A stretch of 64,000 nucleotides of DNA from Diphasiastrum complanatum (lineage: Eukaryota > Streptophyta > Lycopodiopsida > Lycopodiales > Lycopodiaceae). Location of the stretch: NCBI GenBank assembly GCA_029204225.1, contig CM055103.1:40460599-40524598 (forward strand), written 5' to 3'. This document shows positions 13,569 through 43,050 of the stretch, piece by piece. The translations under genes were made by a program, and so were the position numbers. Numbering within the stretch: position 1 is the first letter of the stretch; every line of letters begins with the position of its first letter. The notes under the pieces are model-generated. The model did not search any database. It was not told the DNA's origin and saw only the letters and a program-made list of their open reading frames with translations.

Positions 13569-14120
<552 letters not shown>

Positions 14121-14369
14121 TATTGCAAGGCATTATACTAGCATGTGTTTCACAATAAAGCTTTGGAGATTGTGGGCATTTTAATAAACTGAGAGACGAT
14201 TTTACAGAGCTACAAGAAGGTAAATGAAAGGGGCTACAATTTGCCAATTTATAGACCATGTTGGTGGTTGATTCAAACTCATTTTGTGGACTATATGTGA
14301 CAAAAACTCAAGATAGAAATTGTTGTCTGTAGGATATCTAAAAAGTGAAAAGTTTTACACGTGCGTACT

Positions 14370-16600: not shown

Positions 16601-17081
16601 TCGTATACTGGTAACTATCATTCCAGTTCAACTACTTCCACAGAGAAAGTAGAAAATATCGGACATCAAATCAAATGAGGCTAAGACCATATAGAACTGA
16701 CTAAGAGGCACCCAAGGCTGCCAAAACAGCTCCAAAATCAAGTCTTTTCACTTTCCAAGAAAGCTAGTGCAGTTGTCTTTTTCACTTAACATCATCAATA
16801 ATTCCCACAGCACCAATCAACAATCTCGTCTCTGACAAGTTTTGAGATGACCTTGGTGATATTGTGAGAGTCCCCACATATTTGAAGCAGATTCTTCTTG
16901 ATGCAGATAGGTGTAGAAGGGGGCATGCTGATCAGCCCAAATGCAATGGCTAGCTTCTAACTGTGTTCACACAAATAATTCTCCTCAACTTCCACGTCAT
17001 GCAGCACAAAGTTCAAATCAAGCGTATATCGTGCCCCCTTCCCCCAACCCAACTTGGTCTCTCCAATTCCGCTCGGATCCC

Positions 17082-18594
17082 CTAGCTTTGTGGATGAGAT
17101 GCATCACCTACAACAAAGTCGTGCACCTGCCTGCCAGCTTCAAACCAGGTGCACCCTGGCATTTTTTTCACACCTGCATCATTCATTTCTTTCGTTATCT
17201 TTGCTACCTCATCGCTCCAGCCAGCTGCTGCATAGATGTTTGAGAGAAGCACATAAGGTGCAGCATCTTCTGGTTGCAACTTCACAACAGAGTCAAAGGC
17301 ACGTCTTCCTATTTCTAAATGGCCATGGTTTCTAGCAGCACCAAGTAAAGTCATCCAAACCAAAGCATTAGGCTGGATTGGCATTTTACTAATAAAGTCT
17401 TCAGCATCAGCCAGATACCCTGCACGGCCGAGAAGATCTACCATACAAGCATAGTGATCAATAGTGGGTATGACATCATCCTCTTTACACATGCAATCAA
17501 AAAGATGTTGACCTTTATCAACTAGGCCAGAATGGCTGCATGCAGATAGAACACTAAGATAGGTCACCTCATCAGGCTTTGTACCTTCCCTTTGCATTTG
17601 CTCCAAAAGTGTGAGAGCCTCCTTGCCAAGCCCTTGCTGTGCATATCCTGCAATCATTGCATTCCATGACACCACGTTTCGTTCATGCATATTGTTGAAC
17701 ACCTCACGTGCATCCTCAATGCGTCCACATTTTGCATACATGTCAACAAGGGTACTCCCTACAATCACATCTGACTCTAAGCAACTTTTAATGATGTCCA
17801 AATGGAGGTGCTTGCCCTGTTCGAGAGCTACAATGCTGGCACATGCTTTTAGGAGAACAACATATGTGACAATGTTGGGCTGCAAACCGTCCTGTTTCAT
17901 TTGCTCATACAGATCCAGAGCATCCTTGCCAAGACCTTGTTGTGCATAACCTGCAATTAATGCTGTCCATGACACCACGTCCCGTTCATGCATGTTGTTG
18001 AACACCTGACGTGCATCCTCTACACACCCACATTTTGCGTACATGTCAACAAGGGTGCTTCCTATAATCACATCTGACTCAAAGCCACTTTTAACAATGT
18101 CCAAATGGAACTTCTTGCCCTCTTCCAGGGCTGGGATTCTGGCACACGCTTTTAGGACAACAATAAATGTGACCTTGTTTGGTTGTATGCCTGTTTGTTG
18201 CATTTGCTTAAAAAGATTGATAGCCTCTTCGCCTTGTCCGTGATTGGCATATGCTGAGATAATAGTAGTCCATGAAAACACATTATGTTCAGGCATTGAG
18301 TCAAATACTTGGCGTGCATCCAACACACTACCACACTTAGCATACATGTTAACAAGGGTGTTCTTGAGGAAAATGTTCGAATGAAGCCCCTGTTGGACTA
18401 TGAAGGAATGCAAGCGCTTGCCCTCCACCAGGGCTCTCCTTCTGGCGCAGTCCTTCAAAAGGCAAGCATAGGCTTTGATTGGGGCCTGAACATTTTGCTG
18501 AACCATAAGCTCCACCATATGCAGTGCCTCTTTTAGTCGTCCCTCCTGACACAGTTTTCTCACATTCACGCCTTTGCCCAAGGAATCAGGCACC
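17082..18594 (-). other. PLS-E PPR array exon of gene 1
   Basis: It is a single exon coding about 504 residues from VPDSLGKG to the stop. Three P-L-S triplets can be counted by their MYAKCG-x-x-x-DAR signatures, each followed by VVSWTALIAGYA-like P motifs. The E region is complete (YVLLSNIYAAAGWSDEVAKI). Confidence 0.9.
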
Positions 18595-20576
18595 CTGTAT
18601 TGATTCATAGAATGACTAGAAAATAACAAATATGAAAAAAAACATTGCACTGGGAAATTTGAAACAGCAACAACAAAGAAGTTTCAGCCTGGAGCTCCAC
18701 AGTCCACACCAGGATAAACCATACCCAGATCTCAACTCACTACCAGATTGTACTCGGCCCAAAGCCATTGTGGCCACTTTTGCTTTAACCCAGGGGGGGT
18801 TTAGCCAACCTTCAATCCATAGACCCTCATGAGTACTCTTATGTTCAAAGTCCGGGTACTTTGGATTTTTCTACATAACAGTACACACACAGATCAGCAG
18901 GAACAATAGCATCAACTTAAAGAGATTGATTACAATAAGCCATTAATCAGCCTCATACACATAGGTAGTACCATTAAAGACTTTTCACCAGGCGCCAGTC
19001 AAAAGCTAAAAAATCAAGAAAATCAAACCAGAAATGTACAGTCTACATCTATCATCTTGGCCTCAGTGTACAAGACATCTTCAAGAGGATTGTCAAGATA
19101 GATGGATAGCTACACCTTAATAAATCTGGTGTCCCACCATTGTGATGGATCCAAGAAAAACTCCTGCCAAAGCTGTTCCACCCTAACTACATTTCCTGTA
19201 TGAGTCACAACATTTGGAAAATATGATTAAGGAATATTGATGTGGCAAGTTTCATAATCTCTACTAGTTCTTTGGTCCCAGGTTCGAGCCTCCCCTTGGA
19301 AACCATGAAGCATAATCTCTACTAGTTCACCTCTCTCCTCAGTCAGACGTGCTGATGGAGAAAAAGAAATGCAAGCAATGAGAAAACAAAGGAGCATACT
19401 AGAGATCTCAGGTGTTGTGAAGCCGGATTGCCCCTGTTCTTGACCTTGTACCATGACAGCTACCCTGACATGCACCAAAGGGGGATGGAACCTGCTATCA
19501 ATCCAAAGTGCCTTCTCTGCACTACTCCTATGTCGGAGGTCCGGAAGTGTCGGATTTCTCTGAAAGCAAACACTGGCTTTAGCCATAGTTAACCTCAAGC
19601 AAATGTATTAAAAAGATCACAACTCTTGAAATAGAATAGAGTGCAATCAGCATAGTTGCATGAGGTACCAAATTGTATAATTTGAGACCAGCTCATGTCT
19701 TGGACTACACAGTAAGTCCATTGAAATGATTGAAGCAGACTGGGCCTTGAACGAACAACGCTAATAGAGCAAGCTGCTGAGGGTTTATCCAGGAAGTGGA
19801 CTGCCAGCAAAATCCTGAGCAAGCAAACTACTAGTTCCCTGGAAAACTAAGATCGAGCGGTGCAAATTGCAAGAAGAATCCCTCACTTGTATAATATAGT
19901 GTTTGAATGAGTGAATTCCGTAGATAGGATGGTGGCAGATTCACCTTGTTAGTCCTATTGTCCCACCACTGCGAAGAATCTGAGAAGAACTCCTCCATAA
20001 GATGCTTTGTCCTCCATGTCTGGCCTCCTGCACTACAAAGAGAGAGAGAGAGGAGAAGAAGATGATCAGACAGAATGTCATTGATGGGTTGGGTGAGAGT
20101 AGTCGGTGGTCAAAGAACTAGCAACATAAATAAATAGCAGATCATGATTCTTAGGGTCATTCTTCAACAACGAAAACCTGCATCCATTAATAAAGGATAG
20201 GAAAACCCATCGACAAAAACCTGCTTTCACTTAAGAAAGGAAGGAAAACCCATCAACAAAAACGTGATTTCACTTAAGAAAGGATGGAAAACCCATCAAA
20301 ATAACTCTGCTTTCACTTAAGAAAGGATGCAAAACCCATCAACAAAAACCTGCTTTCACTCAATAAATGATCGGAAAACCCATTAACAGAGAACCCTGCT
20401 TTCATTGATAAAGAATGGTAAACCCATCAGCATACGGAAGGATGAAACATTGAATCCAAGGTGCAGCACAAGCACCAGCAAGATTAGAAAATGAAGAATA
20501 AGAAGTGGGCACCTTGATGATGTGGATGATTTGGGCTCCAACAAAGGCCCATGCTTCCTGCTGATGCTGCTGCCAT
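17082..20576 (-). CDS. PDF-motif/PPR fusion protein, gene 1 (681 aa, six exons, model)
   Basis: Exons on the minus strand are 20513-20576, 19945-20027, 19400-19559, 19116-19195, 18725-18870 and 17082-18594. Every junction has GT...AG, phases agree, and the sum is 2046 nt with a single stop. The start MAAASAGSMG was chosen because gene 2 has the matching MAAAGGW. Residues about 20-130 hold two PDF motifs of the organellar single-stranded DNA-binding (OSB) type. Residues about 178-680 are a PLS-type PPR array with three MYAKCG S-motifs and an E-type end (PGCTWFEAGRQVHDFVVG), without DYW. PPR-E proteins specify organellar RNA editing sites and OSB PDF motifs bind single strands, so an organellar RNA or DNA role is inferred. 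No OB fold was seen. A separate ATG (MNQYRVPDS) at 18606-18608 could alternatively start a stand-alone PPR protein. Confidence 0.75.
18595..18724 (-). other. 130-bp intron joining PDF and PPR exons (gene 1)
   Basis: Donor GG|GTATGG and acceptor ATACAG|GG keep the frame (RSG-VPDS). A second acceptor TTTTCTAG 13 nt further upstream in transcript order also keeps the frame. Confidence 0.65.
18725..20576 (-). other. PDF-motif exons of gene 1
   Basis: PDF motif 1 is split between exon 2 (WRTKHLMEEFFSDSSQWWDNR) and exon 3 (RNPTLPDLRHRSS...LW). PDF motif 2 is split between exon 4 (LWQEFFLDPSQWWDTRFIK) and exon 5 (KNPKYPDFEHKSTHEGLW, then NPPWVKAKVA). Both interruptions fall at the same place, after the lysine that follows WWDxR, which points to duplication of an exon pair. 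The W-x-E-F-F-x-D-P-x-Q-WWD-x-R plus NP-x-YPDF-x-HK pattern is the OSB PDF motif from family knowledge. Confidence 0.78.
20168..20425. repeat. intronic minisatellite, unit about 43 bp, six copies
   Basis: The unit contains tgctttcacttaagaaagga and aaaacccatcaac with small changes between copies. It fills most of intron 1 of gene 1 (20028-20512), an intron absent from gene 2. Confidence 0.85.
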
Positions 20577-39060: not shown

Positions 39061-41065
39061 TTATCTTTGCTCCCCCATCCCTCCAGCTGCTTCTGCATAG
39101 ATGTTTGACAGAAGCACATAAGGGGCAGCAATTTCTGGTTCCAATTTCACAACACATTCAAAGGCATGTCTTCCTATTTCCACATCACCATGGATTCTAG
39201 CAGCACCGAGCAAAGTCATCCAAATCACAGCATTAGGATGGATTGGCATCTTACGGATGAAGTTCTCAGCATCAGTCAGGCATCCTGCCCGGCTGAGAAG
39301 ATCAACCATACAGATATAGTGATCGATTGTTGGTATGACACCATGATCTTTACACATTGAATCGAAGAGGTGACGACCTTTATCTACTAGGCCACAATGG
39401 CTGCACGCAGATAAAATACTTACATATGTAACCTCATCAGGCTTTATACCTTCCCTTAGCATTTGCTCCCAAAGTGTGAGAGCCTCCTTGCCAAGCCCTT
39501 GCTGGGCATATCCTGCAATCATTGCATTCCATGACACCACATCTCGTTCATGCATGTTGTTGAACACCTGAAGTGCGTCCTCTATGCACCCACATTTTGC
39601 ATACATGTACACAAGGGTGCTCCCTACATTCACATTGGACTCAAAACCACTTTTGATGATGTCTAAATGGACCTGCTTGCCTTGTTCCAGGGCTGCAATG
39701 CTGGCACTTGCTTTCAGGAGAACAAGATAAGTGATCTTGTTGGGCTGCACACTTTCCTGTTTCATTTGCTCATATAGATTAAACGCCTCCTTGCCGAGCC
39801 CATGCTCTGCATATCCTGCAATCATTGCATTCCATGACACAACATCTCGTTCATGCATGTTGTTGAACACCTGACATGATTCCTCTATGCACCCACACTT
39901 TGCATACATGTCAACAAGGGTGCTACCTACAATCAAATCTGACTCAAAGCCACTTCTGATGATGTCTGAATGGAGCTGCTTGCCCAGTTCCAGGGCTGCA
40001 ATGCTGCCACATGCTTTGAGGAGAACAACGTATGTGACAATGTCAGGACGGACACCTTCCTGCTTCATTTGTTCATACAGATCAAGAGCCTCCTTGCCAA
40101 GCCCATGTTGTGCATATCCTGCAATCATCGCATTCCATGACACCACACTCCGTTCATGCATGTTGTTGAACACCTGACGTGCATCCTCTATGCACCCACA
40201 TTTGGCATGCATGTCAATGAGGGTGCTCCCTACAATCACATCTGACTCAAAACCACTTTTGATGATGTCCAAATGGAGCTGCTTGCCCTGTTCCAGAGCT
40301 GCGATGCTGGCACATGCTTTTAGGAGAATAGCATATGTGACAGTGTTGGGCCGCACACCTTCCTCTGTCATTTGCTCATACAGATCAAGAGCCTCCTTAC
40401 CAAACCCTTGCTGTGCATATCCTGCAATAATTGCTGTCCATGAAACCACATTCCGCTCATGCATGTTGTTGAACACTCGATGTGCATCCTCTATACACCC
40501 ACATTTTGCATACATGTCAATAAGGGTGTTCCCTATGGCCACATCTGACTCAAAACCACTTTTGATGACGTCCAGATGGTATTGCTTGCCCTGTTCCAGG
40601 GCTTGGATCCTGGTGCATGCTTTTAGGACAATTGCAAATGTGAACCTATTTGGTGGTAGGCCTGCCTGTTGCATTTGCTGAAAAAGATTGATAGCCTCCT
40701 TACCTTGTCTGTGATCGGCATATGCTGAAATGATAGTAGTCCATGAAAACACATTGTGTTCAGGCATTGAGTCAAATACTTGGCGTGCATCCAACACCCT
40801 AGCGCACTTAGCATACATGTTAATAAGGGTGTTTCCTAAGAAAATGTTTGAATCAAGTCCCCTTTGGACTATAAGGGCATGCACTTGCTTGCCCTCTGCC
40901 AACGCTCTCCTTCTGGTGCACTCTTTCAAAAGGCAAGCATATGTGTCAACTGGAGTTTGAATATTTTGCTGAACCATACACACCACCATACGCAGTGCCT
41001 CTTTTAATTGTCCGTCCTGACAAAGTTTGCTCACATTTTTACCAGTGTCCAAGGAATCAGGCACC
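39061..41065 (-). other. PLS PPR array exon of gene 2
   Basis: About 667 residues. The P-L-S triplets are highly alike (VVSWNAMIAGYAQHGLGKEA and variants), a sign of recent triplet duplication. The E region is truncated after YVLLSNIYAEAAGG. PGCSWIEVGN can still be read downstream in another frame at about 38985-39020. Confidence 0.9.
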
Positions 41066-43050
41066 CTGCATCATGATTCATACAATAATTACGAAAAAAA
41101 GCATGAAAAAACTCGAATTTTTAAGCAACAACAAAGAGATGCTGTAATCTTAGCCTAGAGCTCCGCAGTTCACACCAGGAGTGAAACCATACCCTGATCT
41201 CAATCCACCACCAGATTGCATCTGATCCAATGCCATAGCAGCCAACTTTGCTTTAACCCAGGGAGGGTTCAGCCAACCTTCGACCCACAAACCCTCATGT
41301 GTACGCTTATGTTCAAAGTCTGGGTAATTTGGATTTTTCTACATAACAGTACACACATCAGCAGACATAATACCATCAAGGTAGGGAGAATGACTACAAA
41401 TCAGCCTCATATACCATAGGTAGTACCACTCACTGGGGACCAATCAAAAGTCATTAGCCAAAGAAACTTAAGCAAGAAATAAACAGTCCAAATCAGCGTC
41501 TGGGCTTCAGTTTACAGGTCATCTTCAAAGGCGTTGTTGCTTTGTTAAGATAGATGGATAGCCACACCTTGATAAATCTGTTGTCCCACCACTGCAATGG
41601 ATCGGAGAAAAACTCTTGCCAGAGCTGTTCCACTCTAAGTACTTTTCCTGCATGTCTCATAACAATGGCGAAATATGATTAAGGAATGTTGACGTAGCCA
41701 GCTCAAGCATCTCTGCTAATTCACACCTCTCCAGTCAGGCAATGCTGATGACGACATAGAAATGCCATGCAGTGAGAAAGATTTTTGCCTAAATTCAGTG
41801 GCTAACATTTGCCGAAAGGTTAATATTTAATCACATTGATATTTCATTCAAGACACTCAAGTGCAAAGTAGGTTCAATTGTGCATGAATAAATATGAAAT
41901 TTGCCCAAAAGTTTAGAGCTTATAAATTTTCTATGACCTCATTGGCCAAGTTAATGTAACCATCGACCTCCTTTTTTTTATATTATAAGGTGTATTTTAG
42001 GGATGAGCCAACCTTAGGTAGATGTTGGCTATCTTCTGTGAAGGGTAATTTTCAAGGAACTTTAAGTGAAAATTTTGAATCTTTCCACCATCGTTTGACA
42101 GGCAAATAAGATTTTTGAAGGTGAATGAACAAGCTTGCCCCGGGAAACTATTTCAGATGCAAAACAAAACTTTTAGGTGGGCCAGCTTGTTTTGTAATGA
42201 CCTAAAGGAAAAATTTCATGATCAGACGAGCATAACCGGCGTTCTCTCTGAAGAATCAAAATCTTACCGATAAAACTAAATTTTACCATTTTAAAGATAA
42301 CAAATTCGCTCTATATAGATCAATTGTTTATAGAATAAAACTATCAAGGTGACACTGGTGAGAATAACAAGAAACATACCACAGGTTAAAAACCCGGATT
42401 GCCCTTGTTTCTGACCTTGTACCATGACAGCTAGCGTGGCATGTGCCCAGAGAGAGTTTAGCCTGCTATTGATCCATAGTGCCTTCTCCACAATACTCCT
42501 ATGTTTGAAAGCCGAAAATCTTTGATTTTTCTGGAAAAAAGTATTAGCATCAGGTATATCAATTCAAGCAAATCCACTTAAATGTTCACAACTCTTGGAT
42601 TACAGAAGACTGTAACCAGGAAAGCTCCTAAAGGTGCTAGAATGAACGATCATAGCTCAGCTCAAGTCTTGGACTACAGTGAGTCCATCGCAAAACTTAG
42701 AGCAAGATAGGCCTTGGACCCACAACCCTAATAGAGCAAGCTGGTGAGCTATCTATATGGAAACTGAACTGCCAGCTGAATTCTGAAGCAGACAAAGAAC
42801 TAACCCCCTTAAAAGTAAGATCATGCAGGGCAAATTCAGAGAAAAATGCCTCTCTTGTACCCTACAGTGTGTGAATAAATGAATTCCATAGATAGGGTAG
42901 TGGCAGTTTCACCTTGTTAGTCCTATTATCCCAGCACTGCGAAGGATCTGAGAAGAGCTCTTCCCAATTTTGTTTTGTTCGCCATGATTGGGCACCTTGA
43001 AGATGATTTGGGTTCTCACAAAGGCTTACCCAACCTCCTGCTGCGGCCAT
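39061..43050 (-). CDS. PDF-motif/PPR fusion protein, gene 2 (839 aa, five exons, model)
   Basis: Exons on the minus strand are 42913-43050, 42380-42530, 41568-41647, 41193-41338 and 39061-41065. Phases match gene 1 exon by exon, and the sum of 2520 nt is divisible by three. The first exon corresponds to exons 1 and 2 of gene 1 without an intron. The PPR exon begins VPDSLDTGKN with GTG, and an in-frame TGA lies just upstream, so a stand-alone PPR protein has no ATG at that point. There are five MYAKCG-type S motifs (the third reads MHAKCG), against three in gene 1. PDF motif 1 is worn (QCWDNR, FSAF in place of PDF); motif 2 is intact (NPNYPDFEHK, LWVEGWLNPPWVKAKLA). A 4-bp loss near 39085 ends the protein early in the E region. 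Probable organellar RNA/DNA-binding factor, weakened relative to gene 1. Confidence 0.7.
41066..41192 (-). other. 127-bp intron joining PDF and PPR exons (gene 2)
   Basis: Donor GG|GTATGG and acceptor GATGCAG|GG. The joined codons read RSG-VPDS, the same as in gene 1. Confidence 0.65.
41193..43050 (-). other. PDF-motif exons of gene 2
   Basis: The first halves of the motifs are WEELFSDPSQCWDNRTNK and LWQEFFSDPLQWWDNRFIK. The second halves start KNQRFSAFKHRS and KNPNYPDFEHKR. All four edges coincide with GT/AG at the same residue positions as in gene 1. Confidence 0.78.

Follow-up and report, generated by a model that had tools for sequence, protein, structure and literature searches.

Predicted proteins joining OSB-type PDF modules to PLS-class PPR tracts in the clubmoss Diphasiastrum complanatum and other land plants

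Arrays of pentatricopeptide repeats (PPR) bind RNA with their N-terminus towards its 5' end, and the DYW end of editing factors acts on the edited C. PLS-class editing factors, ending in E, E+ or DYW, are one of the closest described systems for the gene treated here; the other is formed by the organellar single-stranded DNA-binding (OSB) proteins. As stated in portions of a review (PMC6963530), OSB proteins consist of an OB fold and PDF motifs, and the PDF motif of AtOSB1 is sufficient for binding single-stranded DNA (ssDNA). Both kinds of module meet in a minus-strand gene of the clubmoss Diphasiastrum complanatum, located in the stretch of DNA analyzed here (the window, 64,000 nucleotides; C12:40460599-40524598 of the 1.74-Gb assembly). 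The gene appears to belong to a large, old and apparently undescribed family with one to three OSB-type PDF modules N-terminal to a PLS-class PPR tract.

This is a new domain architecture of which both modules were already known. Like OSB proteins, the fusions have the PDF core (W, W.D.R, K, PDF.HK, LW, P.W), and one relative, P0084, is named Protein OSB3 at its source; OSB proteins, however, have an OB-like fold and no PPR tract, whereas in the fusions a PPR tract is present and the search for an OB fold found none. With PLS-class editing factors the fusions share PLS repeats, an E motif and, in 49 of 144 relatives, a DYW-type end, yet they add N-terminal PDF modules, and the copy in the window lacks E+ and DYW. 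The combination of one PPR tract with an extra module is also seen in Physcomitrium, where the additional domains named in the relevant parts of an overview are RRM, LAGLIDADG, SMR, NYN, CBS, and SAP, with PDF unlisted there (PMC9459714). The author of a preliminary description of the window gene knew of no family with the PDF-then-PPR order, and this holds within the accessible portions of that overview and of the open-licence PubMed Central literature, in which no description of a PDF-PPR fusion was found and the terms PDF motif, OSB and PPR occurred together only in a replication review.

Re-deriving the exons of the window gene from the sequence gave exactly what the preliminary description had proposed, namely six exons with GT/AG edges throughout, phases that sum, a length of 2046 nt and a single stop. 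In this spliced frame two PDF units, recognized by a PDF profile, stand directly N-terminal to the PPR tract. The joint across an intron of 130 nt was likewise borne out, as the junction is conserved in paralogues and the closest protein to the window gene, the public model O6H91_12G074900 (P0001), makes the same joint. An alternative acceptor 13 nt upstream (18607), offered at the same time, stood in part: it is in frame with a donor at 18744 (2040 nt), but out of frame with the donor at 18725. The junction 18725/18594 is preferred because donor and acceptor are conserved in the family. The first exon of P0001 differs from the predicted exon 1 and begins at 20405. Nevertheless, exon 1 with its ATG at 20576, as originally proposed, is better supported, because a second gene in the window has the equivalents of exons 1 and 2 unbroken and because the proteins P0002 and P0003 start with similar residues.

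Pfam matches in the window protein comprise PPR_2 (6.8e-72) and PPR_1 in nine stretches, as expected of tandem PLS repeats, and an E_motif (2.4e-23; 82.6 bits against a cut-off of 27.3) that places it in the E subclass. Only the first 14 residues of E+ are present, below the cut-off, and no complete E+ or DYW deaminase was found in the protein by Pfam, a DYW relic lying in another frame with a stop. For the PDF part, no Pfam family appeared at E<=1 among the matches listed (25 of 26), so that its identity rests on the OSB homologues.

One objection would be that two adjacent genes, one for a PDF protein and one for a PPR protein, were wrongly merged by gene prediction, as the presence of an intron between the two parts in the window might suggest. 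The junctions of the paralogues speak against this. At 19 of 20 junctions (the window included) the last PDF exon has its donor after 146 nt (counted as 152 for L029, whose segment starts two codons earlier), a [CT]AG|G acceptor follows and the spliced frame is open, and 16 of the 19 donors read GTATGG; the scan considered only GGTA donors and [CT]AGG acceptors within set ranges, kept pairs giving an open frame with the expected residues, and yielded one pair per locus and none for the twentieth junction (L046), where the acceptor is lost. One of the 19, L037, duplicates the window gene almost exactly. Across these 19 loci the junction intron measures 114-204 nt, and since its lengths leave all three remainders (0, 1 and 2) on division by three, the fixed frame is not a by-product of a fixed length. 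Reading through the intron meets a stop in 12 of the 19 and remains open in 7. Moreover, a PPR tract follows the PDF matches on the same strand in 19 of 20 fetched loci, which were chosen and not drawn at random (L029-L036 mainly by open-frame length, the others from match lists). The remaining locus, L036 (C12:35722500-35729500), has remnants of PDF exons and no PPR tract in the 4 kb downstream covered, and is a decayed or PDF-only copy; it is the one locus that fits separate genes. In another branch of the family, the second half of a PDF unit, the PPR tract and the DYW end form a single stop-free genomic block (C4:47461309-47463267 and C12:30130832-30132790; matches to residues 130/131-783 of protein P0113, read from the match table alone), and therefore no splicing across the joint is needed there. 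Fused models are also found in Sphagnum, Calypogeia, and Ceratodon, and one fused protein of 849 residues (P0091) is listed from a contig of 2923 bases. A wrong merger of two genes is thus highly improbable, and the window gene is judged from these comparisons to be a real PDF-PPR fusion. The earlier proposal of one polypeptide with PDF motifs followed by PLS-type PPR agrees with the conserved junction, the unspliced relatives and 144 fused relatives.

These relatives also amend the preliminary description, in that the fusion as such stands and is no isolated case but one member of a large family. From two protein searches came 146 proteins containing PDF units, and 144 of these also have PPR Pfam domains (110 from D. 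complanatum, 24 from Sphagnum, 5 from Calypogeia, 1 from Ceratodon, and 4 of unspecified source); since the searches were seeded by PDF regions of fusions and candidate length was limited, the fused share should not be taken as representative. When residues 1-185 of the spliced product served as query, 55 proteins came up, 54 of them PPR proteins of D. complanatum and the other a protein of the moss Ceratodon. Querying with the PDF region of P0046, a diverged member, yielded 176 matches, and the best 120 of these included further D. complanatum proteins, proteins of seven named Sphagnum species and of the liverwort Calypogeia fissa, and two OSB-type proteins that lack PPR, namely P0084 (from Mucuna) and P0056 (from Kingdonia). 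A query with the moss segment returned three proteins from 13 candidates, all fusions. One PDF unit was counted in 82 of the 146 proteins, two in 54, three in 8, four in 1, and thirteen in 1, by a profile built from ten units and with weak partial units included. About a third of the fusions end in a DYW cytidine deaminase, and by a pattern test the DYW-type ends are distributed as 33 of 110 in D. complanatum, 12 of 24 in Sphagnum, 3 of 5 in Calypogeia, 1 of 4 in those of unspecified source, and 0 of 1 in Ceratodon. In the D. complanatum genome the PDF part has 208 matches at E<=10, those listed all being 2e-14 or better, a count of exons that includes near-duplicate copies and is to be read as a lower bound.

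The PDF core of the fusions is, by column comparison, that of OSB proteins. Fourteen core columns (W, W, D, R, K, P, D, F, H, K, L, W, P, W) agree at 82-100% in each of three groups, namely 142 last units and 35 inner units of fusions and 11 units of the two OSB-type proteins, after exclusion of fusion units below 60 bits and OSB units below 35 bits (which removes P0054 and P0055). The absence of the OB fold from the fusion, claimed from the outset, was confirmed within the searches made: the OB segments of P0084 and P0056 had no match in the window (tblastn, E<=1) and matched no other protein among the 146 (phmmer, E<=1), hence none of the 144 fusions. For a complete stand-alone OSB of D. complanatum, an OB segment of P0084 gave only weak exon matches, located at C12:26.10-26.12 Mb or thereabouts as well as in other places: four in the genome with E 0.6-2.8, and values of 3e-4 to 8e-4 when a few fetched loci were searched. 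In the 8.7 kb after one such weak OB match, the PDF profile had no significant hit. In the Kingdonia uniflora protein P0056 there are 13 PDF unit matches, and the OB match comes late, towards the C-terminal end; should the model be correct, this order would be unusual.

In the AlphaFold2 model of P0001, computed from a 51-row alignment with a mean predicted local distance difference test score (pLDDT) of 86.4, each PDF unit is predicted to fold as a helix, two short strands and a helix. Unit 2 (residues 101-160) has block pLDDT values of 78-92, and a linker (residues 171-183) with pLDDT below 50 leads into the PPR superhelix. Both sequence and fold place the PPR part closest to 9kfx, a synthetic PPR-DYW protein with RNA, and PLS and PPR designs are among the solved relatives of this part. 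A search with P0084 against solved structures gave no match at E<=1, and a fold search with the whole model left the PDF fold unplaced, the best 50 of 1232 matches being PPR designs, PPR10, and chains of RNA polymerase and the mitoribosome.

Conservation of the PDF exons bears on whether this module is more than a passive passenger, that is, a leftover N-terminal extension that gives a start and perhaps an import signal without binding nucleic acid. For the last PDF exon (48 codons), pooling 19 loci gives a ratio of nonsynonymous to synonymous differences (pN/pS) of 0.44 (codon bootstrap 0.28-0.65). The motif part of this exon has a ratio of 0.36 (0.21-0.59), which argues against a passenger, while its linker part is little constrained at 0.66 (0.35-1.23), as a passenger would be; the degenerate PDF unit 1 and the short leader of the window gene point the same way. 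Exon 5 of the window gene against the 18 other loci gives 0.33. The first-half PDF exon (0.23 over 18 loci) is a weak further point against a passenger, and the first 78 PPR codons give 0.55, both figures coming from a looser picking whose pattern demands conserved residues and mixes inner and last PDF units, with one locus (L039) out of register in the PPR set. In addition, the PDF core is kept in clubmoss, moss and liverwort units, and several members have kept two or three units. A passenger role is therefore unlikely, and the PDF core is, on the evidence of these ratios, under purifying selection.

The best explanation, and a probable one by analogy with OSB1, is that the family is real and old and that PDF-PPR(-DYW) proteins are organellar editing factors with an N-terminal PDF clamp for single strands. 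Family members would be nucleus-encoded factors for organellar C-to-U editing, in which the PPR array would read the RNA target. Given the orientation of PPR arrays on RNA, the PDF units would lie 5' of the PPR footprint, where they may grip the RNA with little sequence preference and thereby raise affinity or keep the site single-stranded. The clamp role is suggested by OSB1, whose PDF motif binds single strands without help from the OB fold, and single-strand binding may in this way be coupled to the recognition of editing sites, as the preliminary description had put forward. Alternatively, the PDF part may still act on DNA as in OSB proteins and anchor editing factors to organelle nucleoids, or to displaced strands where transcription proceeds, which would couple editing to transcription. 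This fits the binding reported, as ssDNA is the only ligand given for PDF in the portions of the review at hand (PMC6963530), a point that also weighs against an RNA clamp, but the PPR tract belongs to RNA-recognizing proteins, and a DNA tether is rather improbable, slightly less so than a passenger.

Several further points weigh against PDF-PPR proteins acting as an editing-factor family with a PDF clamp. In the available parts of a study of lycophyte plastids, Lycopodiaceae have the fewest predicted editing sites of three lycophyte families, and U-to-C editing is far commoner in them than C-to-U (PMC9316050); these predictions concern start and stop codons only, in plastids and not mitochondria. 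With so little plastid editing there would be no call for a large family of C-to-U factors in plastids. The fusion is known here from genomic and protein-model sequence, the conservation figures of the PDF core lean high through the exclusion of units below 60 bits, and the selection estimates come from a simple, pairwise dN/dS method with an exon-picking pattern that demands part of the motif, though none of the 19 loci was dropped by it. Close PPR paralogues in the genome have in several cases in-frame stops, and many copies of the family are, to judge by these stops and by the lost junction acceptor of L046, decaying. The window copy itself is without a working DYW end, its PDF unit 1 is degenerate (PDL replacing PDF), and its leader is far shorter than that of P0002 and P0003, which makes its import into an organelle uncertain.

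The state of the window copy can be considered apart from that of the family. Its stop at 17082 coincides with the start of E+, and a broken relic of the DYW deaminase follows downstream, for which reason the copy appears to be E-type through loss of its DYW end. The PLS-E ending proposed earlier is thus right in that the E motif is present, but the ending is secondary. Having lost its own deaminase, this copy would depend on a DYW protein supplied in trans, unless it is in an early stage of decay. Decay of this one gene in an otherwise working family, which would be compatible with the clamp explanation for the family, is conceivable though not favored. The broken relic and the degenerate PDF unit 1 would be expected of it, the second PDF-PPR gene in the window is likewise broken in its E/DYW end, and a segment with 99.06% identity lies nearby. 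On the other hand, the PPR-E frame is intact and its translation is the same in that duplicate, and the ratio of 0.33 for exon 5 indicates constraint. Moreover, PPR proteins of the E+ class are reported to depend on a partner, DYW2 (PMC7076377), so that the absence of an own DYW need not mean lost function. The duplicated segment is that of L037 (C12:40230500-40240000), about 243 kb away on the same chromosome, and the identity was measured over 7952 columns against window positions 14-22 kb. Near-identical pairs are common among family members in the assembly; either a recent duplication of segments or haplotypes that were not collapsed could account for them.

In a tree of 70 PDF-to-PPR segments two types part, each with a Shimodaira-Hasegawa-like approximate likelihood ratio test (SH-aLRT) support of 99: the window type has 22 rows, exclusively from D. 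complanatum, and a type shared by Sphagnum, Calypogeia and D. complanatum has 47 rows, four of them of unspecified source. Ceratodon forms a long branch. Being without a fixed root and an unfused PPR outgroup, this tree cannot decide between one and several fusion events, and single PDF units are too short for a tree of them to resolve the types. Many shared-type members have a like linker (A-MAPGTVQ...FSWN), and the genomic match of P0113 begins at that point of the PDF motif at which exons 4 and 5 of the window gene meet. This linker and the shared start point favor, at the level of sequence, a fusion older than the split of the clubmoss, Sphagnum and Calypogeia lineages, a single event not being proved. 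More tentatively, and with somewhat less than even confidence, it could be speculated that PDF-PPR-DYW is an ancestral editing-factor architecture of land plants, which would predate the parting of liverworts, mosses and lycophytes and number about 100 or more genes in the clubmoss, with PDF beside the sequence-reading PPR array as a clamp that holds single strands regardless of sequence, either of RNA or, where transcription takes place, of DNA. One PDF-PPR-DYW protein of D. complanatum, P0113 (O6H91_01G141200; C1:76534585, C1:33774780), is placed by the tree among Sphagnum sequences, with SH-aLRT values of 80-94 on the surrounding branches. Its identity is 70% to P0088 (Joint Genome Institute, Sphagnum group) over 611 residues, 58% to the conspecific P0097, and up to 65% to sequences elsewhere in its own genome, and it may represent either a horizontal transfer or a slowly evolving orthologue.

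The fusions thus join, in more than 100 proteins from three old plant lineages, two organelle protein families deemed separate, one of DNA maintenance and one of RNA editing. Questions that become testable are whether PDF binds RNA, whether it widens or tightens the range of editing targets, and whether editing is tied to DNA. With a length of about 60 residues, the PDF module may also serve as a small clamp for designed PPR proteins.

The features of the window gene and of the second PDF-PPR gene are collected in Table 1.

Table 1 Features of the two PDF-PPR genes in the window, in window positions
Feature	Positions	Strand	Basis
Exon 1, start codon and short leader MAAASAGSMGLCWSPNHPHHQ	20513..20576	-	exon re-derivation; equivalent residues run into exon 2 in the second window gene
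Exon 2, first half of PDF unit 1	19945..20027	-	exon re-derivation, PDF profile
Exon 3, second half of PDF unit 1 (PDL replaces PDF) and inter-unit linker	19400..19559	-	exon re-derivation, PDF profile
Exon 4, first half of PDF unit 2 LWQEFFLDPSQWWDTRFIK	19116..19195	-	exon re-derivation, PDF profile
Exon 5, second half of PDF unit 2 (KNPKYPDFEHK...) and linker	18725..18870	-	exon re-derivation, paralogue junctions
Junction intron, 130 nt, GTATGG...ATACAG	18595..18724	-	position and phase kept in paralogues
Exon 6, PLS-type PPR tract and E motif, stop at the start of E+	17082..18594	-	exon re-derivation, Pfam
DYW deaminase relic, other frame, internal stop, outside the product	16819..17040	-	sequence matches
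Second gene, equivalent of exons 1 and 2 in one frame, without intron 1	42913..43050	-	sequence matches
Second gene, second half of PDF unit 1	42380..42530	-	edges read from sequence
Second gene, first half of PDF unit 2	41568..41647	-	edges read from sequence
Second gene, second half of PDF unit 2, 80% protein identity to exon 5	41193..41338	-	end edge by analogy with exon 5
Second gene, PPR tract to first stop, start edge approximate	39061..41061	-	sequence matches

The second gene lies on the same strand as the first, at 43050-39061, and remnants of its broken E/DYW end reach down to 38643. Finally, a long GA/CT dinucleotide run at window positions 13954-14137 appears as Arg-Glu and Leu-Ser reading frames.

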